64,000 nt of DNA, taken from positions 868,001 to 932,000 of the forward strand of contig NZ_VTFU01000001.1 in NCBI RefSeq assembly GCF_009192735.1. The letters are read 5' to 3'. Source of the stretch: Arthrobacter gandavensis. Lineage in GTDB: Bacteria; Actinomycetota; Actinomycetes; Actinomycetales; Micrococcaceae. A program made the translations under genes and the position numbers. Positions 3,089 to 17,138 of the stretch are shown here, piece by piece; position 1 is the stretch's first letter; the number at the start of each line of letters is the position of its first letter. The notes beneath the pieces are model-generated. The model was not told the origin of the DNA, ran no database searches, and saw nothing but the letters and a program-made list of their open reading frames with translations.

Positions 3089-5326
3089 TTAGCCCTGGGC
3101 CGAGTCCGGAGAAAAACCGTCCAAGTGGAGGATCCGGACCTCGTCCGGAAGCAGTCCGGGCACATGCACGCCCACCTGTTCCAGGGCCCGGCCGGTAAGG
3201 ACGGCTCCGTCCTCGGCAGGCCACCACGGCGGCGGGCGGAAACCCTGCGGGGCCGGGCCCGGGGTCACGTCCCGCAGCCGGTAGGACCGTTCCGGGTCCA
3301 GTCCCCGGAACGTGAACCGGCCCAGCGGCTCAATATCGGAAACAGCCGTGCGGACGACGGCGAACAGCGCCTGCGATCCCGAGGGGTCGACGACGCCGTG
3401 GATCTGCAGCGAGGGATCAAACGAATCCAGGCGCACCATCCGGCCGCCGTGCAGCAGGGCGCGGTGCTCCTTGTAGAACTTCACCCACTCCGCCAGTTCC
3501 CGGGTCTCTTCCGGGGTCGCCTCGGTCAGGTCCCATTCGATGCCCAGATGCCCCCACACCGCGGTTCCGGCCCGGAAGTGCAGCGTGTGCATCCGCCCGG
3601 TGGTGTGCGAACGCAGGGAAGCAATATGGGATCCCATGAGTTCGGGCGGAATCAGCTGCTGCGTCCAGCGGTGCATCCGCTGCCGCTCGAGTGGATCGAT
3701 ATTGTCGGAGGTCCAGACCCGGTCCGTGTGCTCCAGCACGCCCAGATCAACGCGGGCGCCTCCCGATGAGCAGGACTCGATTTCCAGGTCCGGAAACCGC
3801 TCCTTCAGTTCGGCCATCAGCCGGTAGGCGGCCAGTGTCTGGGCGTGGACGCCGGGCCGGCCATCGGGCTGGGTGCCGGCCTCGATGAGGTCCCGGTTAT
3901 GGTCCCACTTGATGTAGGCGATCGGATACCGTTCCAGCAGTGCCACCATCTGGTCCCGGACGTGTCCGTAGGCCCCCGGCATGCCGATGTTCAGGACCTG
4001 CTGCTGCCGGGATGAGACAGGCAGCCGTCCGGCCGGTGCCATGATCCACTCCGGGTGGGCGCGGGCCACGTCGGAGTCCGGGTTCACCATTTCCGGCTCG
4101 AACCACAGCCCGAATTCCATCCCCCGGGAACGGACGTGGCTGATCAGCGGGTCCAGGCCGTCCGGCCACATGTCGGCGGAAACCACCCAGTCCCCCAGGC
4201 CGGAGGAATCGTCCCGCCGGGAACCGAACCATCCGTCGTCGAGCACAAAGCGTTCGACGCCGACTTCCGCGGCCCGGTCGGCGAGTTCCGTGAGCCGGTC
4301 CAGCCGGTGGTCAAAGTAGACGGCTTCCCACACGTTCAAGGTGACCGGGCGCGGACGGGAAGGGTGCTGTGGCCGGGCGCGCAGCCAGGCGTGCAGCCGG
4401 GCAGCCTGGTCATCAAGGCCGTTGCCCCACACTCCGTACAGCCATGGCGTGGAGTAGTCTTCCCCGGCGCCAAGGACCACCTCTCCGGGCAGGAGCAGTT
4501 CAGAACCGCCCAGCACCTGCATCCCGTTGGACAGCCGCTCGGCCCAGGCACGGTGGTTGCCCGAGAAGCCAATGTGCAGTCCCCAGACCTGTCCGTCCGC
4601 GAAGCCGAAGCCGGGTTCACCCGCTGAGAGGACATATGCGGCATCGGCCCCAGTGCGCCCCCGGCGTCCTTCCCGCAAATGGATACCCACCGGCAGCGGG
4701 CTGCGCTGGGGAGTCCGTTCCGCGCCCCAGTGTCCGGCAAAGTCAAGGATCTCCCGTGCGCGGGACGGCAGGGGCAGGATGAGGCCCAGTTCCTGGACGC
4801 GGTAGTCCCCTTCGGCGGTATTGGTCAGCCGTGCCCTCGTGCGGAGCAGTCCGGCGGCCGCCAGCTCGAGTTCGATCACCAGGCCGAGCCCGGACTGCGC
4901 GTCAGTGGCGGTCACGGTCAGGGTGGCCGGGCCGGCGCTCGTCAGCGAACCATCGGTTCCGGCGCCCGGCCCGGCCGTGGGAACGAGCTCCACCTGCGTG
5001 ACGTGAAAGCGTGGAGTCCAGGCGGCGCCGTTCCGGTCGCCGGCCACACCGGGGCGTCCCGTCCATCCGGTGTGGAGCGAACCGAGCATGTCCGGCCGGA
5101 TGGGAACGTCCACGCTGTTGGCCGACAGGTGCGGAACCGCTGCGGCGGTCAGTACCGCAGCTTCCTCCGGCCCGAGTCCGGGCAGCTCCGCACCCCAGTG
5201 CACCACTGAGGGCAGCTGATGGTCCGACAAGTCAATGAGCACCGAAACCCCGCCGCTGCGCAGATGGACACGGCAGGGTCCAGCGGGATCAAGTACGCGG
5301 ACTTCTTCCAGGCTGACAGCGGTCAT
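3089..5326 (-). CDS. Alpha-galactosidase, glycoside hydrolase family 36
   Basis: Retaining alpha-galactosidase of 745 residues that releases terminal alpha-1,6-galactose from melibiose or raffinose-family sugars. There is no signal peptide, so it acts in the cytoplasm on imported sugar. The N-terminal beta-supersandwich (about 1-320) is followed by the catalytic barrel. LDDGWFG is at about 362-368. The nucleophile Asp475 is in YIKWDHNRD, the substrate-binding ESCSSGGARVDLG follows at about 517-529, and the acid/base Asp541 is in TSDNIDP. This is the full length of bacterial GH36 enzymes. AGGAG precedes the ATG. It is the first gene of the operon. Confidence 0.95.
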   Translation of the reverse strand: MTAVSLEEVRVLDPAGPCRVHLRSGGVSVLIDLSDHQLPSVVHWGAELPGLGPEEAAVLTAAAVPHLSANSVDVPIRPDMLGSLHTGWTGRPGVAGDRNGAAWTPRFHVTQVELVPTAGPGAGTDGSLTSAGPATLTVTATDAQSGLGLVIELELAAAGLLRTRARLTNTAEGDYRVQELGLILPLPSRAREILDFAGHWGAERTPQRSPLPVGIHLREGRRGRTGADAAYVLSAGEPGFGFADGQVWGLHIGFSGNHRAWAERLSNGMQVLGGSELLLPGEVVLGAGEDYSTPWLYGVWGNGLDDQAARLHAWLRARPQHPSRPRPVTLNVWEAVYFDHRLDRLTELADRAAEVGVERFVLDDGWFGSRRDDSSGLGDWVVSADMWPDGLDPLISHVRSRGMEFGLWFEPEMVNPDSDVARAHPEWIMAPAGRLPVSSRQQQVLNIGMPGAYGHVRDQMVALLERYPIAYIKWDHNRDLIEAGTQPDGRPGVHAQTLAAYRLMAELKERFPDLEIESCSSGGARVDLGVLEHTDRVWTSDNIDPLERQRMHRWTQQLIPPELMGSHIASLRSHTTGRMHTLHFRAGTAVWGHLGIEWDLTEATPEETRELAEWVKFYKEHRALLHGGRMVRLDSFDPSLQIHGVVDPSGSQALFAVVRTAVSDIEPLGRFTFRGLDPERSYRLRDVTPGPAPQGFRPPPWWPAEDGAVLTGRALEQVGVHVPGLLPDEVRILHLDGFSPDSAQG

Positions 5327-5495: not shown

Positions 5496-6311
5496 TTAAA
5501 GCATTGCCACGCTCCGGTTCCACAGCTGCAGGGCCAGGACTCCGTCGTCGGCCTGACGGTTGGCGCGGAGCACCTTGTTGCGCCGGTAGTACTTTCCCGT
5601 TTCATAATCCTCACCGGGAATTCCCTCGGCGAGGTAGACGAGCGTTCGGGCTCCCGTCTCCGGCGTTGGAACCAGCCGGCGCAGCGGTGAACGGAAGGCT
5701 GCGCGCAGCACCGCGCCCTGTCCGTTCAGGAAGCTGGAGCCCACCAGACCCGGATGGAAGGCCGTGGCGGTTGCTCCATGCGATCGGTAGCGCCGGTCGA
5801 ACTCCCCGGTGAACAGGATCTGCTCGAGTTTGGTGGCCGCATAGGCGCGGAAGGGCTTGTAGTCCTTTTCCTGTTCCAGATCCTCCAGGTCCACCCGCGC
5901 CACCCGGTTCGCGGAGCTGGAGGTGTTGATGACCGTTCCCCGGGATTCCATCAGCCGGTCCGTGAGCAGCCGGGTGAGCAGGAACGGCGCGAGGTAGTTC
6001 ACCTGGAAGGTCATCTCATGCCCGTCTCCGGTGAGTTGCCGTTCTTTGCCGAAAATGGCGCCGGCGTTGTTGGCCAGCACATCGATGCGGGGAAAGCGCT
6101 GCAGGATTTCCGAAGCGAGATTCCGGACGCTGTTCAACTGGGCAAAGTCGGCAAGAATGTAATCTCCGCCGGTGTCGGCCGCCACAGCAGCGGTCCGCTC
6201 CGGTGAGCGGCCCACCACCAGCACCTGGTGCCCGTCCGCGGCCAGCTGCCGGGCAGCCGCCGCCCCCAGCCCATCGCTGGCACCGGTAATCACAATCGTT
6301 TTGGAAACCAC
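5496..6311 (-). CDS. Short-chain dehydrogenase/reductase (retinol dehydrogenase-like)
   Basis: NAD(P)-dependent oxidoreductase of 271 residues with a classical SDR fold. The cofactor motif TGASDGLG is at 9-16, NNAG at 81-84, the catalytic serine is in NTSSSANR (129-136), and the active-site YAATK gives Tyr157 and Lys161. The C-terminal part resembles the retinol dehydrogenase/WW-domain oxidoreductase-like subgroup; the substrate cannot be read from sequence. The start is GTG with GAGGAAAG about 13 bases upstream, somewhat far. It is a lone gene between the alpha-galactosidase promoter region and the symporter gene. Confidence 0.88.
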   Translation of the reverse strand: MVSKTIVITGASDGLGAAAARQLAADGHQVLVVGRSPERTAAVAADTGGDYILADFAQLNSVRNLASEILQRFPRIDVLANNAGAIFGKERQLTGDGHEMTFQVNYLAPFLLTRLLTDRLMESRGTVINTSSSANRVARVDLEDLEQEKDYKPFRAYAATKLEQILFTGEFDRRYRSHGATATAFHPGLVGSSFLNGQGAVLRAAFRSPLRRLVPTPETGARTLVYLAEGIPGEDYETGKYYRRNKVLRANRQADDGVLALQLWNRSVAML

Positions 6312-6410: not shown

Positions 6411-7385
6411 CTACTTTGTGGGCCGGCGGCGCCAAAAGGCTGCCATCAGCGCGCCGGAGACGTTGTGCCACACCGAGAACACGGCGGCGGGCAGGGCCGC
6501 CTCCGGAGTGAAGTATTCCCTCGCCAGCCCCGCTGCGAGCCCGGAATTCTGCATGCCCACTTCAATGGCCATGGTCCGCCGCGCGGGAATGGGCTGCCGG
6601 AACAGTTTGGCTAAGCCGTAGCCCAGACCCAGGCCCAGGCCGTTGTGCAGCACGACGGCCAGCAGGATCAGCCATCCGGCGGTAAAGATGGCGGCCGAGC
6701 TTCCCGACACCACGGCGATGACCACAAAAGTGATGGCGATAACCGACACCCACGGCAGCAGCGGCAGAACGCGGTCCACCAGTTTGGGAATCAGATAGCG
6801 CACCACCAGCCCGAGCACCACGGGAATCAGCACGATCTGCACGATGGACAAAGCCATGGAGCCGGCGTCCACCGACATGTACCGGTTGGCGAGCCACAGT
6901 GCCAGCAGCGGCGTGAGAAGGGGGGCGAGCAGGGTGGACACCGAGGTCATCGCCACGGAAAGCGCCAGGTTACCCCGTGCCAGGTACGTGACCACGTTGG
7001 AAGCCGTTCCGCCCGGCGCGCATCCCACCAGGATGACGCCGGCGGCCAGTTCAGGACTGAGCTGAAGCGCCCAGGCCACGGCGACTCCGATGAGCGGCAT
7101 GATCACGTACTGGGCGACGACGCCGAGCAGCACGGGCAGCGGCTGCCGGATCACCAGGGCGAAGTCCGGCATGGTCAGAGTCAGGCCCATGCCGAACATG
7201 ATCAGCATCAGGCCCGGATTAATGTAGGCGGACAATCCGGCTGCGGTGAAGGGCTCCGGGAAGAACAGGGCAACGGCTCCCCCGGCCAGGATCAGCAGGG
7301 GAAAGACGGTGACGGCGATGCGGGCGCTGCGCTCCTCTGCGGTGCGCGGGCTTTGGGGAGCGGTGGTGGCAGGGTGGGAGGACAT
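6411..7385 (-). CDS. Bile acid:sodium symporter family (BASS) transporter
   Basis: Membrane transporter of 324 residues with about ten hydrophobic segments. BASS hallmarks are visible: GMGLTL early on, GCAPGGTASNVVTYLARGN in the middle and EVGMQNSGLAAGLA near the end. Bacterial BASS proteins are sodium-coupled organic-acid carriers; the substrate here is unknown. A GTG seven codons upstream (7406) is possible, but the ATG at 7385 starts a more typical N-terminus (MSSHPATT). Neither start has a strong Shine-Dalgarno. Confidence 0.9.
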   Translation of the reverse strand: MSSHPATTAPQSPRTAEERSARIAVTVFPLLILAGGAVALFFPEPFTAAGLSAYINPGLMLIMFGMGLTLTMPDFALVIRQPLPVLLGVVAQYVIMPLIGVAVAWALQLSPELAAGVILVGCAPGGTASNVVTYLARGNLALSVAMTSVSTLLAPLLTPLLALWLANRYMSVDAGSMALSIVQIVLIPVVLGLVVRYLIPKLVDRVLPLLPWVSVIAITFVVIAVVSGSSAAIFTAGWLILLAVVLHNGLGLGLGYGLAKLFRQPIPARRTMAIEVGMQNSGLAAGLAREYFTPEAALPAAVFSVWHNVSGALMAAFWRRRPTK

Positions 7386-7509
7386 CCCCACATGCTGGCA
7401 CTGCACGCGGGCATCCGCTATTTGTGACGCGCGTGGATGGGAAGACCAGCCGTGCTGCGTGCACCTTCAGGGGCGGGCCGGACCGGACCCAACGCGCACA
7501 CCCGGAGCC

Positions 7510-7778: not shown

Positions 7779-9962
7779 CTAGACCGCAGCAACCTCTTTT
7801 TCCCGGGCCGGAGCAGCCGCATTGGCAGCGGGCGCGTCCACCGGATAGGGCTCGGTGCGCGGAGGCCGAACCCGGTCAATGATGACCAGGAGCGCCAGGG
7901 AAAGAGCACCCCAAATTCCCAGGGTCAGCAGATGCGATCCCACCGTGTCGCCGCCGAAGTAGAGAATGGAGCGGATCGACTCCACGGCAGCGGGCATCGG
8001 CAATACCTCGTGCAGGAAGCGGAAGATTTCCGGTTCCATGTAAATGGACATCGCCGCGCCCGACGCCGGCACACCCAGGAACATCAGGAGCCCGATCACC
8101 GGCAGGATGGCCAGCATGCCCATGAACCGCTCAAAGACCGCGGTGAACATGGCCACGCAGAACACCGCGACGGCGCCGACCCCCAGGAGCGGCCAGAAAT
8201 GTCCGTCAATGGCACCGACAAACACGTCCGCAATCACCCAGAGAAAGGCTGAGATTCCGACGGCCCAGGCGGCAACAATCGGTATCAGCTTCCGCAGCGG
8301 ACGGCTGGCCGGAGCCGCGGTGGAGCCCACGACAATGATCATGAAGCCTGCCATGATCCAGCCCATGGCCAGGTACATGGTGGCCATGCCCATGGAGTCG
8401 TCGTCGCGCAGCGGGGCAACATCCTCCGCCGTCAGCTCCACCTGCTGCCCGGCGGCCACCTGGCCAAAGACCGAGTTCACCACCTGCTGCTGGCTCATGC
8501 CGGCGGCTTCGTTGCTGATCAGCGTGGCCGTGGGGTTTTCGGCCGACGGCAGGACAAACGCGGCAACCACCGTGCGGTCACGCACCTGCTCCCGCGCCTC
8601 GTCAGCGGAATCCATCGCTGCCAGCTCGAAGAGTCCGGACATGTTTTCCTCGAGCCCGGCCGCCGTCTGTTCGGCCTGTTCAACGGTGGCGCCAACGACG
8701 GCGACAGGCATGTCCCGCGGTGCCGGCTGGTACATCGCACCGAGCATGAAGGAGAGCATCATCGTCACCATGGCCAGCGGGAACCCGGCCAGCGCAATGT
8801 AGCGCCAGCGGCGGCGCTTGGGCCGCGGCCCGCCGTGCAGTGAGGCCACGTTGACGGCCAGCGGTGCGGCGTCGGGCTTGCGGTGCCGTTTCAGTGCGTC
8901 AAGGCCCAGCGTGAGCAGCAGTGCGGCCACGGCTCCGACGGCGAGTACGAGCAGGTGCCTGCCAGCGCCGTTTCCGTCGAAGAAGAGCACCGACCGCAGC
9001 GACTCGCCGGTGGCGGCCGCAGGCAGGAAACTGTGGAGCCACACATAGATCCCGGGCATCGTGTGCACCGACATGCTCATGTTGGAAGCCGGAACACCCA
9101 GCACCATCAGGAACAGCATGCCGACCAGGACGGCCATCGGCCCGAAAATGCGGGTCAGGAGCAGCTGGACGCTGCCGACGGCGAAGACTGCCAGCGCACA
9201 TATGCCGAGCACCGCGGCGGTGTGCCCCTGGACCACTCCCATGACGGGCCCGACGACGGTCCACACCAGCGCCGCGATCAGCGCCGACCAACCGGCCAAC
9301 AGGGGAACAAACCGCCGGAACTTCATCAGTTCCGGGGAGTTGGACAGGATCAGGCTCAGCGGCATGTAGCCGGCGAGCATCAGCGCGGTGGTCATGAACA
9401 TGGCGCCCAACCCGGCCGCGTCATTGTCCGGCAGCGGAGCGAGGTCCTCGGACTGCAGGGCCAGGCCCTGCGCCAGCACCTGCGGCGCCACCAGGGCGGT
9501 TACCGCGCCGGACTGTGAGGCGCCGGCGGCTCCCGCCGTATACAGGGTGGCGGTACCGTCAGCCAGTGCAACGGCTCCGGCAACCTCGCGGTCCATCACC
9601 AGTTGGCGCGCTTCCGCGGCAGTTCCCGCCACGCGGACGTCCACCGCGTCCGGGTTCGCTGTTTCGAAGGAGTCGGCAAAGGCGGCGGCCTGCTGGGCGT
9701 TGCCGGCGACGGCGATTGGCATGTCATGCGGTGTTGGCGCATGCATTGCCGCGAGGTACCCGCCCACCAGCATGGAGACCATGAGCAGCGGCATGAGGAA
9801 CATGGCGACATAGCGGCCGATTTTCTCAGCCTTGGCCCGCTTAAGCGCAGCGGCTTCGGCGGTAGCCGACAGATCACTGCCAGGTGCCGCCGGCTCCCCG
9901 CCCAAGTCCACCGGAGCGGCGCCCGGCGGATAGTCGGCGGACGTGGGGGAATTGTGACTCAA
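7779..9962 (-). CDS. Membrane protein with two fused YhgE/Pip-like units
   Basis: Protein of 727 residues built from two similar halves, about 35-375 and 395-710. Each half has a first membrane helix, then a PTPHDMPIAVAG / PAPRDMPVAVVG segment, an extracellular domain of about 120 residues, and a block of five to six helices with the landmarks GVPASNMSMS / GVPASGAAMS and GESLRSVLFF / VESIRSILYF. The architecture resembles the YhgE/Pip and DUF3533 families (ABC-2-like membrane proteins, some phage-infection or export proteins), which normally have one such unit. A TTG start at 9962 with GGAG 7 bases upstream is chosen; the open frame runs further but has no better start. It is divergent from a TetR gene, so it may be drug- or lipid-inducible export. 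Function is inference. Confidence 0.78.
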   Translation of the reverse strand: MSHNSPTSADYPPGAAPVDLGGEPAAPGSDLSATAEAAALKRAKAEKIGRYVAMFLMPLLMVSMLVGGYLAAMHAPTPHDMPIAVAGNAQQAAAFADSFETANPDAVDVRVAGTAAEARQLVMDREVAGAVALADGTATLYTAGAAGASQSGAVTALVAPQVLAQGLALQSEDLAPLPDNDAAGLGAMFMTTALMLAGYMPLSLILSNSPELMKFRRFVPLLAGWSALIAALVWTVVGPVMGVVQGHTAAVLGICALAVFAVGSVQLLLTRIFGPMAVLVGMLFLMVLGVPASNMSMSVHTMPGIYVWLHSFLPAAATGESLRSVLFFDGNGAGRHLLVLAVGAVAALLLTLGLDALKRHRKPDAAPLAVNVASLHGGPRPKRRRWRYIALAGFPLAMVTMMLSFMLGAMYQPAPRDMPVAVVGATVEQAEQTAAGLEENMSGLFELAAMDSADEAREQVRDRTVVAAFVLPSAENPTATLISNEAAGMSQQQVVNSVFGQVAAGQQVELTAEDVAPLRDDDSMGMATMYLAMGWIMAGFMIIVVGSTAAPASRPLRKLIPIVAAWAVGISAFLWVIADVFVGAIDGHFWPLLGVGAVAVFCVAMFTAVFERFMGMLAILPVIGLLMFLGVPASGAAMSIYMEPEIFRFLHEVLPMPAAVESIRSILYFGGDTVGSHLLTLGIWGALSLALLVIIDRVRPPRTEPYPVDAPAANAAAPAREKEVAAV

Positions 9963-10054
9963 GCTCGTGCTCCTGTGCTGTGGTTCGATGGTGATGCGAG
10001 GAAGGCACCGGCCGGAGGGCCGAATGCGCGGCCTGTGGGACCGACTCGTCAAAA

Positions 10055-10072
10055 TTACGCCATGTGGCGTAA
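10055..10072. promoter_or_regulatory. Perfect palindrome, probable TetR operator
   Basis: TTACGCCA and TGGCGTAA flank a 2-base centre, giving an 18-base perfect palindrome in the gap between the fused YhgE-like gene and the divergent tetR gene. Size and position are those of a TetR-family operator. TAAATT at 10070-10075 may be a -10 box for the regulator, so binding would repress both genes. Confidence 0.75.
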
Positions 10073-10115
10073 ATTTGGTTAATCGAGGCAACCATCACGA
10101 TTGAAGGCACAACAC

Positions 10116-10778
10116 ATGGGTCAGCACGGGGACCATGCACGGAACATCCTGCTCGACGCGGCCGAGGAGCTTTTTGCCTGCCACGGCATTGACGCCGTCT
10201 CCAACCGGCGGATCGCCGAGCACGCCGGGACAGCGAACCACTCCGCCGTCGCGTACCACTTCGGCGGGCGCGGGGATCTGCTGCGCGCCCTCGTCACCCG
10301 CCATGTTGAGGAGACGAACCGCCGCCGTTTGGACCTGAGCGAGACGCTGGGGGCGGATGCCTCACTGAGTGATCTGCTGGCATGCCTGATCCTGCCTTGG
10401 ACCGAGCACCTTGCCTCACTGCCGGTTCCCAGCTGGCGCGCCAGGTTCCTGTCCCAAATCCGCTCGGCACCCTCGGTGCACGAAACCCTGGCCCGCAGCG
10501 CCACTGCCAGCCCGGTCACCGAGGACCTGATCCGGCGCGTCCACGCCACCCTCGGAGAAATGCCGGCCACAGTGCTGCACGGCCGGTCCTGGATCCTCGG
10601 CGGCATGGTGTTGGGAGTGTGCGGAGAGTATGAGGCGCGGATCCAGGACGGAGTGGAACAGCCCAACTGGGCCGGCGTTGGCTACTTCCTCATCGACTCC
10701 TGCGCCGGCATGCTGTCGGCTCCCGTAACGCATCCGGGAGACTTCCTCACACAGCCGTCCCCGCTCTACCTTTTGTGA
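10116..10778 (+). CDS. TetR/AcrR family transcriptional regulator
   Basis: Repressor of 220 residues. The N-terminal HTH spans about 8-55 with ILLDAAEELFACHGIDAVSN and a recognition helix in NHSAVAYHFGGRGDLLRAL. The rest is an all-helical ligand and dimer domain with several Trp and Cys residues. The ATG at 10116 has GAAGG 8-12 bases upstream; a TTG at 10101 is less likely. It is divergent from the fused YhgE-like gene and faces a perfect palindrome at 10055-10072, so it very probably controls that gene and itself. Confidence 0.9.
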   Translation: MGQHGDHARNILLDAAEELFACHGIDAVSNRRIAEHAGTANHSAVAYHFGGRGDLLRALVTRHVEETNRRRLDLSETLGADASLSDLLACLILPWTEHLASLPVPSWRARFLSQIRSAPSVHETLARSATASPVTEDLIRRVHATLGEMPATVLHGRSWILGGMVLGVCGEYEARIQDGVEQPNWAGVGYFLIDSCAGMLSAPVTHPGDFLTQPSPLYLL

Positions 10779-13592: not shown

Positions 13593-15194
13593 TCAGGTGT
13601 CCGCGTGCCGCGGACCCGTGCCGGGCGCCGCGGGACCGGATGGTGCTGCAGGACCGGAGGGTGATGCAGGACCGGTTGGCGTTGCAGCTGCGGACGCCGC
13701 AGGTGCCGGCGCAGTCCTCGTCCCTGCAGTCCCGGGCCCTGCCGGCAGCTGGGCTTTCCGCCGGCCGAAGGCCCGCTCATAGAGCACCGCGAAGATCATT
13801 GCCACAACCACCGCGATGATGATGAGGATCAGCATGCCGATGATCCCGCTCTGCACCCCCGCGCTGGCATCGGCGTCGAAATACAGGACGGCCCGGTTCG
13901 CCATGGTCATTTGATACAGCGGCTCACCGCGGGCGATAAACCGGAAGAACCCCGGCAGAGCCTCCAGCGGGACCACGCCGCTGGCCGCGGGCAGGCCCAT
14001 GAACACGATGTAGATCATGGACACAATCATTCCGGCGCTGCCCAGCACCGTGATCAGCGCGAACGCTACGGCCGACACTGTGACAATGGACAGCCAGGTG
14101 GTGAGGAAGTACCAGCCCCCGTGCGGAATCGGCATGCCGACGGCGGAGCCCACCCACATCATCAGCCCCGCGGTCGGCAGGGCTGCGAGGGCAACGATCC
14201 CCCACTTGGTGAAGAAGGTGACCCAGCGGGCCGGGCGCACCGGCGGTCCCAGGACAAAACGCGGCCCCAGCTCAATGGGCAGAACGCCCAGCCGGGAATC
14301 CACCAAGAAATGAATGGCAACGGAACCGGCAACTCCCACGACCATCAGCAGCACCGAGTAGAAGAACGCCCCCATACCCAGCGCCGTGCCTTCCGGCGGT
14401 GTTTCGTAGGCGGTGGTGGTGACCTGGATGGGGCTGCTCAGCAGATCGGCGGACGTCCCGGTCAGTTTCGGGGACAACTGCTGCTCCAGCTGAGTCGGCA
14501 GCTCGGCGCCCGCCGTTCGCAGCTGCCGGTCCAGCTGGGCCTGCGCTGCGGTCTGGGCGGTTTGCGCCGCGGACGTCAGCTGCTCCCCCACGCTCTTGTT
14601 GGCCTGGTCCAGCGCCGGGTTGACGGCGCCCGTCGCCAAGCTGCTGGCCAGCGGGCCGGCCAAGGGGTTGGTGTACACGGTGACGGAGGGTCGGGACACA
14701 GCATCTTCCGAGAGTGTTCCGCTCACCAGGGCCAGCGCGTCCGCCGAAAAGGACTCGGGGATGACGACGGCGGCATGGATCTGCCCCTTGCGCATCTGGT
14801 CCTGGGCCTCGTCCCAGGACAGCTGCCTCAGGTCTATCTCGTCGTTCCGGGAGAATCCCTGTGTCATTTGGTCGGTGATCGTCGCGCCGAGGTCTTCCCG
14901 CCCGCCGCCGTCGGGCGATTCGGCGCCGGCATCCTCATTAACGACGGCTATGGGAAAGTGATTAAGGTGCGTGCCGGGGCTGCCCAGCCCGCCGATGTAG
15001 AGCGCAGTGCCGGTTCCGCCCAGGAGCAGCAGCACCAGCAGCGGCAGTAACCACAGCCGGGGCGAGTAATACGGATGATGTTCCTTGGCGTGGCTGACCC
15101 TGCGGGTATTGGAACCGGAGTCTGTGCCGGAACCGGAGCCATTGTTCCAATCAGAGTCGTTTTTTGAACCGGAGTCCATGGGGTGGGCGGGCAT
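13593..15194 (-). CDS. YhgE/Pip-like membrane protein, single unit
   Basis: Protein of 533 residues. A Ser/Asn/Gly-rich cytoplasmic start (1-40) leads to a first membrane helix (LWLLPLLVLLLLGGTGTALY). An extracellular domain of about 220 residues with an Ala/Gln-rich helical stretch (about 200-245) follows, then five or six helices with GLPAASGVVPLEALPGFFR. Layout is that of YhgE/Pip and ABC-2-like proteins, which span the envelope; the role is unknown. The C-terminal 45 residues are a Pro/Ala/Gly/Thr tail with near-repeats of GPAAPS encoded by repeated DNA. TGGAGG precedes the ATG. It is a distant single-unit relative of the fused protein at 7779-9962. Confidence 0.82.
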   Translation of the reverse strand: MPAHPMDSGSKNDSDWNNGSGSGTDSGSNTRRVSHAKEHHPYYSPRLWLLPLLVLLLLGGTGTALYIGGLGSPGTHLNHFPIAVVNEDAGAESPDGGGREDLGATITDQMTQGFSRNDEIDLRQLSWDEAQDQMRKGQIHAAVVIPESFSADALALVSGTLSEDAVSRPSVTVYTNPLAGPLASSLATGAVNPALDQANKSVGEQLTSAAQTAQTAAQAQLDRQLRTAGAELPTQLEQQLSPKLTGTSADLLSSPIQVTTTAYETPPEGTALGMGAFFYSVLLMVVGVAGSVAIHFLVDSRLGVLPIELGPRFVLGPPVRPARWVTFFTKWGIVALAALPTAGLMMWVGSAVGMPIPHGGWYFLTTWLSIVTVSAVAFALITVLGSAGMIVSMIYIVFMGLPAASGVVPLEALPGFFRFIARGEPLYQMTMANRAVLYFDADASAGVQSGIIGMLILIIIAVVVAMIFAVLYERAFGRRKAQLPAGPGTAGTRTAPAPAASAAATPTGPASPSGPAAPSGPAAPGTGPRHADT

Positions 15195-15402: not shown

Positions 15403-16161
15403 TCACCCAAGTTCGCAGGTGGAGAGGGGCGTCCAGCCGGATGGCAGCGGCCCCTTGATTGCTCCCCGCTCGGCGTCTGCCTGGGCTGACCAGCCTTGTG
15501 CCGCTTGGCCCGTGGAGAAGCCGCCTTTTGCCACCCGTACGCCGACGTCAGGATGCTTCATCCCGGGGGCGCCGCCGCGGCGGGTGGATGCACGGACGCT
15601 CCACGGCTGGTCGGCGAATCCACCTCCGCGGAAAACCCGATAGTTCCCATAACGTGCCGGGTCCAGCAAATCCCAGCACCACTCCCAAACGTTCCCCAGC
15701 GTGTCGTGCAGGCCGTAAGCGTTGGGTTCCTTCAACCCCACAGCCTGAGGTTGGCCCACCTCATCAGCGGCCGTCCATGCGATGCGTTCGAGGAGTCCGT
15801 AGTGCGGACCCGTTGTCCGTGCCCGGCAGGCGTATTCCCATTCGGCTTCTGTGGGCAGCCGATATCCGCCGGCTTCGGTCTGCCACGTCACGCTTTCCCG
15901 GTTCACCAGGTACACCGGCGCCAGCCCCTCCAAGACCGACGCAGCATTGCAGAAATTGACCGCGTCAAGCCAGGTCAGGTCCACAGCTGGCGAGAGGAGG
16001 GACAATCCAGCTGCGCCCATAACCTTCGCATAGCTGGCCTGAGTGATGGGAACGACGCCGATCTCGAACCGTTCGAGCTCCACGGACCGGCGGAGCCCTC
16101 GACGTGCGTCGTGCAGCTCCACCTCCCCCGCGGGCAAGGCGCGCAAATCGAGAGTAGTCAT
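15403..16161 (-). CDS. SUMF1/formylglycine-generating-enzyme-like protein
   Basis: Soluble protein of 252 residues with the FGE-sulfatase fold. Family landmarks are YRLPTEAEWEYACRA, LGNVWEWCWDLLD and YRVFRGGGFADQPWSVR. True copper-dependent FGE enzymes carry two active-site cysteines in the segment after RGG; here that stretch has none, so sulfatase activation is unlikely. Other family members include EgtB-type and C-type-lectin-like binding proteins. An upstream ATG at 16200 is also open; 16161 is chosen for its GGCGGA and its better N-terminus. No sulfatase of the formylglycine class is in the window. Confidence 0.8.
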   Translation of the reverse strand: MTTLDLRALPAGEVELHDARRGLRRSVELERFEIGVVPITQASYAKVMGAAGLSLLSPAVDLTWLDAVNFCNAASVLEGLAPVYLVNRESVTWQTEAGGYRLPTEAEWEYACRARTTGPHYGLLERIAWTAADEVGQPQAVGLKEPNAYGLHDTLGNVWEWCWDLLDPARYGNYRVFRGGGFADQPWSVRASTRRGGAPGMKHPDVGVRVAKGGFSTGQAAQGWSAQADAERGAIKGPLPSGWTPLSTCELG

Positions 16162-16305
16162 TCCGCCATGATTCCACCGGAGCCGCCATAAGCCATTCAT
16201 GGCCTAGGCTGGGGCGGCGGCGTGTTCCGCCTCACACCGAGGCCGCACAAAGTAACCGCAAGCACTCTGAGCACCGCGTCCTGACGCATCGAAAAGAAAG
16301 CGAAC

Positions 16306-16545
16306 ATGAGCAACCATGCCCGCGGCGACCTCCCTGCAAAGAAGGTCCTCACCCGCGCCATCTATGTGCCCACCGCCATTACCCTGATCATGGCCGTCTA
16401 TTTCGCCATAACCGGCGAATGGCTTCTGGCCGGCCTGATGGTGGTGGTATCGCTCGGCAGTCTGATCACCTATCCCTGGTACAAGCGCCAGCTTGCTGCC
16501 CGGGACGCTGCCGCTGCGAAGCCGGCAAGCAGCCACGACAGCTAG
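16306..16545 (+). CDS. Small membrane protein, 79 residues
   Basis: Unrecognised protein with two hydrophobic segments (about 18-36 and 39-57), a basic loop YKRQLAARD and a soluble C-terminus. The ATG has only a weak AAGAAAG upstream. It ends 5 bases before the kinase-like gene, so the two are probably co-transcribed. Confidence 0.7.
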   Translation: MSNHARGDLPAKKVLTRAIYVPTAITLIMAVYFAITGEWLLAGLMVVVSLGSLITYPWYKRQLAARDAAAAKPASSHDS

Positions 16546-16550
16546 GCGGC

Positions 16551-17138
16551 ATGATCAAAAACGTGTCCACGTCACCCGCTCTTTTACTCATTGGCCCCGC
16601 GGCAGCTGGGAAATCGACCATCGGCACCCTAACCGCGGACCTCTTGGGTATTCCCTTTGTGGATCTGGATGAGATTGGTGCTGATTACTACGCCGAGGTT
16701 GATTGGAGCATCGACCGGCTGGTGCGGCGCACCGCTCAGGTGGGACGGGTGGCGGCCGAACGGGAGTGGGAACCCGCACGCGCCCATGCCGTGCGCAGAG
16801 CTGTGGAAGACCATCCGGATGCTGTACTGGCGTTGGGCGCCGGGCATTCCTCCTATACCGACGCTGCTTGTTTTGCGGACGTACAGGCTGCCGCGGCCAA
16901 GGTCTCAACCGTGGTTCTGCTGCTGCCCACGGGCGAGCGGGCAACGGACCTGGCCGAGCTCAAACGGCGGTCACTGACCACGAAGGGGACGGATTGGGTT
17001 AGTTCGGGGCACGACTTCATGGCGGAGTGGCTCGATGATCCGGGAATGCGCTCCCTCGCCACCGACCTCGTCATCACAGGAGCCGACACTCCCCTGGAGT
17101 GCGCACTGCGCGTCGCCGGGCTGGTTCAAGGGACATGA
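16551..17138 (+). CDS. P-loop kinase, shikimate kinase-like
   Basis: Soluble 195-residue nucleotide-binding protein. The Walker A motif GPAAAGKST is at 15-23, FVDLDEIGAD resembles the Asp-containing second motif of shikimate kinases, and VLALGAGHS corresponds to the GGG loop of that family in altered form. The frame is open further upstream over the preceding gene; the ATG at 16551 is chosen because it begins directly before the fold. The phosphate acceptor is unknown. A biosynthetic shikimate kinase would normally lie in the aro operon, so this is more likely a divergent paralogue. Confidence 0.72.
   Translation: MIKNVSTSPALLLIGPAAAGKSTIGTLTADLLGIPFVDLDEIGADYYAEVDWSIDRLVRRTAQVGRVAAEREWEPARAHAVRRAVEDHPDAVLALGAGHSSYTDAACFADVQAAAAKVSTVVLLLPTGERATDLAELKRRSLTTKGTDWVSSGHDFMAEWLDDPGMRSLATDLVITGADTPLECALRVAGLVQGT

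Follow-up and report, generated by a model that had tools for sequence, protein, structure and literature searches.

The locus and its two divergent genes

The window, by which we mean the whole 64,000-nucleotide stretch of a 3.72-Mb genome from a soil bacterium (Arthrobacter) that was analysed, carries on its minus strand (9962..7779) a gene for a membrane protein of 727 residues, which opens with a TTG codon preceded at a distance of seven bases by an AGGAG ribosome-binding site (9970..9974, minus strand) that is kept in most Arthrobacter relatives. Two units of the same design follow one another in the chain. Unit A (residues 46–361; 8880..9827, minus strand) comprises TM1, an alpha/beta outer domain and TM2–6, and unit B (residues 384–698; 7869..8813, minus strand) repeats this order with TM7, a second alpha/beta outer domain and TM8–12, the two being joined by a linker of residues 362–383 (8814..8879, minus strand). 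Hydropathy likewise yields 12 helices in two sets of six, and an AlphaFold model (mean pLDDT 76, pTM 0.72) shows in each unit a single helix followed by a small alpha/beta domain and then five further helices, the last of them preceded by short helices. The outer domains, after TM1 and TM7, each measure ∼110 residues.

An earlier note, made from the letters of this DNA, had held that the two halves align end to end and share the landmarks PTPHDMP/PAPRDMP and GVPAS, and both statements stand. The halves are 35 per cent identical across 334 residues (E 3e-62), with a Smith–Waterman score of 510, whereas shuffled controls reach at most 75 and locally shuffled ones at most 155, and the landmarks are found in both. 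Profiles of the N-half and C-half align over 330 columns (E 3e-87); the same comparison with unrelated proteins of the window gave no match. The ABC_tran model finds nothing in the protein. An architecture of two diverged ABC-2-type units in one chain, lacking an ATPase domain, is well supported by the sequence.

Divergent to the fused gene, on the plus strand, lies a TetR-family regulator of 220 residues (10116..10778), whose start is placed at the conserved ATG at 10116 rather than at the TTG at 10101. The helix–turn–helix model PF00440 (TetR_N) matches it at E 9e-11 and is found in 21 of 21 members, and its structural model is all-helical (pLDDT 88).

The intergenic region contains a putative palindromic operator of 18 bp, TTACGCCACRTGGCGTAA (10055..10072), which reads TTACGCCACATGGCGTAA on the minus strand toward the fused gene and stands 43 nt from the TetR ATG and 92 nt from the start of the fused gene. 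No second copy exists in the genome within three mismatches, and a scan of the intergenic region for sigma-70-type promoters found none. The best sites at 29 loci, which were picked by their likeness to the consensus, share the invariant positions T2 A3 G5 C7 A8 C14 T16 A17; in several distant loci the score of the site does not exceed the highest among 200 shuffles, and it is the common position and the symmetric invariants that carry the argument for an operator. As a control, fused Streptomyces genes that lack an adjoining related TetR have no good site upstream.

Downstream of the fused gene are an SDR (5496–6311) and a bile-acid-symporter-family (SBF) transporter (6411–7406), whose linkage to the fused gene was not seen beyond the genus, and farther out the window holds a GH36 alpha-galactosidase-like gene (3089–5326), an FGE-sulfatase-domain gene (15403–16200) and a shikimate-kinase-like gene (16419–17138). 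A single-unit relative had been noted 3.6 kb away, and this proves to be a remote homologue (13593..15194, minus strand) that exceeds the Pfam cut-offs for both DUF3533 and ABC2_membrane_3; it counts as a neighbour rather than an established part of the module.

Distribution and origin of the two units

The duplicated architecture is not confined to this genome, and with its TetR it makes up a module conserved in actinobacteria. Fused homologues occur in Arthrobacter, Galactobacter, Rhodococcus/Prescottella, Nocardia, Leucobacter, Corynebacterium, Streptomyces and another family, and a scan of contigs recovered 31 loci from the first six of these groups, with the fused gene at full length in nearly all (one, L052, was partly matched, and another, L048, is frameshifted). 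In a sample of ∼1950 genomes the fused gene is present in 23 of the 29 genomes of the genus, this one included, in 18/246 genomes of one family (f45), in ∼37/401 genomes of a second (that holding G088) and in 5/393 genomes of the Streptomyces group. Single-unit relatives are much commoner than the fused form. Phage records contained no relative, and the open-access literature yielded no study of the fused form.

The regulator travels with the gene. Genomes of the genus have either both the TetR and the fused gene (23) or neither of them (the other 6), and a related TetR adjoins the fused gene nearly everywhere, the exception being some Streptomyces. Database loci with enough flanking sequence have the TetR adjacent and divergent (the partial L052 gives a short match only), and in f45 the adjacent TetR is 39–47 per cent identical, about 42 per cent being typical. 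The linkage is thus well supported, and the perfect co-occurrence in the genus together with the conserved candidate operator supports the proposal that this TetR is a dedicated local regulator, which the earlier note had already suspected. Regulators differ by branch: a TetR of another type lies near some fused genes, and MarR accompanies the closest single-unit genes. These, in the Streptomyces group (L114 3536–5200 and L115 4607–6279), are divergent to the MarR, which is assigned by Pfam for L114 and by resemblance for L115. Apart from the TetR, no conserved neighbour that would help to reveal a substrate was found beyond the genus in 26 loci and the window.

A cousin of the TetR in another genus (G049) was considered as a clue to the substrate. 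It belongs to the same family and immediately follows a cytochrome P450, close to an SDR and a gene like those for ferredoxin reductases (L113 2104–6456), but there is no fused protein near it, and so the P450 linkage does not tell the substrate.

The two units appear to have separate and old histories. In a first tree, built from 42 N-halves, 42 C-halves and 23 single rows, all N-halves group together (100/99), and the C-halves make up a second clade whose single interruption is the C-half of the frameshifted ATA002 gene, itself properly one of them. On a plasmid of Streptomyces sp. NBC_00564, two neighbouring genes of 348 and 365 residues lie 38 bp apart and are annotated as ABC transporter permeases, and the same two-gene pair is found on a 10-Mb contig of a second Streptomyces record (G1053). 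Adding these split genes to the tree places gene 1 as sister to the N-halves as a whole (99/98) and gene 2 as sister to the C-halves as a whole (95/91), an order that matches the fusion; the fork at which A, B and the split genes meet is modestly supported (80/49), and the root is uncertain. Certain residues are also specific to a unit (Q266 and N294 in A; T607 and G635 in B). On these trees the duplication is ancient, and the simplest account of the origin, which is well supported overall, is a duplication, an operon of two paralogues and then their fusion, although a later fission may have given the two-gene Streptomyces form. With the split halves standing as adjacent genes at the base of both clades, the protein is probably a fused heterodimer, and the divergence of A and B residues supports a heterodimer locked into one chain; the earlier suggestion that a dimer is built into this chain is borne out to that extent.

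One further apparent split gene, in Arthrobacter sp. ATA002 (L048 ∼5105–5116), was set aside: its reading frame is interrupted exactly within the linker and unit B has no start codon close by, which probably reflects a frameshift mutation or a sequencing error.

Placement within the ABC-2 clan

The protein had been described as YhgE/Pip-like, and that label is weakly founded. TIGR03062 is the sole NCBIfam match, its 41.7 bits falling short of the 102.2 that the cut-off requires, and the N-terminal YhgE/Pip model TIGR03061 finds nothing in the protein; in a diverse alignment of 20 members, every one matches TIGR03062 alone among the YhgE/Pip models, at best with E 3.9e-13. By comparison, PF12698 (ABC2_membrane_3) scores 72.1 bits against a gathering cut-off of 31.6, with matches in both halves, and is found in 13 of 20 family members at E<=0.01. 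PF12051 (DUF3533) has no match in the fused protein of the window and scores in 1 of 20 members. Profile alignment with hhalign ranks as closest a small single-unit paralogue encoded in this genome (99 per cent), followed by the DUF3533 neighbour at 13593–15194 (98 per cent with the A half, over ∼300 columns), the long Pip-type protein of the same genome (77–83 per cent, last helices only) and a NatB-type, ATPase-linked permease (7–11 per cent). This ranking puts the fused protein on the DUF3533/Pip side of the ABC-2 clan, and 'tandem ABC-2-fold, DUF3533-like' is a more accurate label than YhgE/Pip.

Comparison with solved structures gave low scores throughout. Among Foldseek matches to the model (pLDDT 76) the two that are significant belong to an insect ABCH transporter, and ABCA7, ABCG5/8 and ABCG25 come next without significance, the best matches having TM ∼0.2–0.3; a sequence search of the PDB with the profile of the fused protein returned no match. 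The earlier note had named an MmpL/RND transporter as one finding that would overturn it. The layout does resemble RND proteins, with 12 helices and outer domains following TM1 and TM7, but no RND or MMPL family model matches and MmpL4 appears in Foldseek at E 0.23 and TM 0.11, so an RND identity was rejected on both fold and family.

A further reading, which we regard as very improbable, is that the protein serves phages as a surface protein of the Pip type or is an EsaA-type secretion component. The last helices are remotely like those of Pip and of TIGR03062, and there is a precedent in Enterococcus faecalis, where Pip is required for phage infection (PMC4999554). The long extracellular domain between TM1 and TM2, present as a coiled coil in the Pip-type protein of this genome, is absent here, however, and outer domains of ∼110 residues lack the long variable ectodomain that phage tropism relies on. 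The curated Pip cut-offs are missed, secretion genes are not linked, and a TetR switch would be unusual for such a protein; nothing was found in favour of the phage-receptor role that had been raised. Pip entries in published expression or mutation tables (PMC11728337, PMC9634178) concern other proteins and have no bearing on the function of this one.

The genome's own long YhgE/Pip-type protein (G000:C7:193292–195942; L088, L091), a 729-residue frame with a coiled-coil ectodomain, lies directly after a 228-residue ABC-ATPase-like frame (31.4 bits), so that an ATPase may work together with some Pip proteins.

A candidate export module

The fused protein could supply the membrane part of a conventional ABC exporter and be joined in trans by an ATPase encoded at another site in the genome. 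Its predicted fold is that of the membrane domains of ABC-2 exporters, a two-unit single chain suits what a heterodimeric exporter needs, and the genome has >100 ABC ATPase matches. This reading seems improbable. Across 26 loci and the window, no conserved neighbour is an ABC ATPase, and the nearest match on the contig is ∼24 kb from the fused gene. ABC-2 permeases contact their ATPase at the TM2–TM3 turn, and neither unit has an acidic motif there, unlike the ATPase-linked permeases of the same genome (VLEEKQNR and GILERF, in a small sample). The profile kinship to an ATPase-linked permease, at just 7–11 per cent, argues in the same direction.

What the regulator might sense is suggested by its fold. 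The nearest solved structures to the TetR model are NicR2, PA3006/PsrA and PhlH (TM ∼0.60–0.73), with FadR less alike; NicR2, PA3006/PsrA and PhlH sense aromatic or fatty-acid ligands. The best NCBIfam match is PsrA (NF053516), at 43.1 bits against 300 and over the DNA-binding part only. The modelled fold gives a hint of a hydrophobic ligand, and the class of ligand is a guess, because many regulators have the TetR fold.

These observations can be joined in a scheme in which a hydrophobic or aromatic small molecule or a fatty acid would enter the cell and bind the TetR, which would then leave its single central operator so that both genes are switched on. From the membrane the fused protein would then export the inducing compound or a lipid related to it, probably via the A/B interface and without ATP, drawing on the membrane potential or a gradient. 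We give about even odds (∼0.5) to this reading, a ligand-induced two-gene module whose exporter would handle a hydrophobic small molecule or a lipid without an ATPase, and of which the substrate, the energy source and the direction are what we infer. Against it stand the weak fold matches in the PDB, the lack of a conserved acidic residue mid-membrane as an obvious proton carrier, and the chance that the protein borrows an ATPase from another locus. Patchy presence, swapped regulators and plasmid copies are usual for detoxification pumps, and the patchy distribution, the branch-specific regulators and the plasmid copy seen here suggest an optional detoxification role.

The same regulator could instead point to the envelope, with a fused protein that serves lipid homeostasis (lipid scrambling or a stress response) and a TetR that senses a fatty acid or a signal of membrane damage. 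DUF3533 and ABC-2-fold relatives include lipid-linked proteins, and the resemblance of the TetR model to PA3006/PsrA, more than to FadR, would fit, as would the PsrA family match, far under its cut-off as it is. We consider such a role unlikely: patchiness, the plasmid copy and regulator swapping better suit an optional function than core envelope upkeep, and no lipid-metabolism gene is found among the conserved neighbours.

A broader form of the export reading, which we put forward tentatively and with some doubt, is that the module represents a new kind of transporter, namely an obligate single-chain A/B heterodimer that has the fold of ABC-2 exporters but at no time relies on an ATPase, that arose through duplication, a two-gene operon and fusion, and that is induced by its substrate through a co-inherited TetR. 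ATPase-free proteins of the ABC-2 fold are widespread on the side of the clan that includes DUF3533, Pip and EsaA. The module offers a candidate operator and repressor as a handle on the inducer, the pseudo-heterodimer fixed by fusion should be useful for structural work, and the natural two-gene version could show whether both units are needed; the module also occurs in species of Nocardia, Rhodococcus and Corynebacterium.

Among known systems the closest are the single-unit DUF3533/ABC2_membrane_3 proteins (PF12051, PF12698), which have the same unit layout of TM1, outer domain and TM2–6 and, in the relatives sampled, share D181/D522, G198/G539, G274/G615, P291/P632, P303/P644 and R323/R664; only the fused protein has two joined and diverged units with a dedicated TetR and operator. 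The YhgE/Pip family (TIGR03061/TIGR03062; phage infection protein, EsaA, YueB) is remotely alike in the last five helices, whereas the fused protein scores below its curated cut-offs, lacks the N-terminal match and the coiled-coil ectodomain, and has two units per chain. ABC-2 or type V exporters (ABCA, ABCG, NatB-type) are alike in the predicted membrane fold, for which the scores are weak, and in having two membrane units per working molecule, but the fused protein lacks an ATPase domain, a linked ATPase and the acidic TM2–TM3 turn. The TetR in turn is like PsrA, NicR2 and PhlH in fold, with sequence similarity mainly in the DNA-binding part and a score short of the PsrA equivalog. SbmA is reported to be a homodimer of ABC-type membrane domains that works without ATPase domains, and DUF3533-type families have been named as targets for the ATPase-free question (PMC9408558). 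SbmA/BacA serves here as a working analogy only, that of an ATPase-less ABC-type membrane dimer; it belongs to a different Pfam clan and fold type, and no kinship is claimed. The fused module is real and conserved, and against these systems it is of a known ABC-2-fold kind, of which the built-in heterodimer and the dedicated switch make it a variant.
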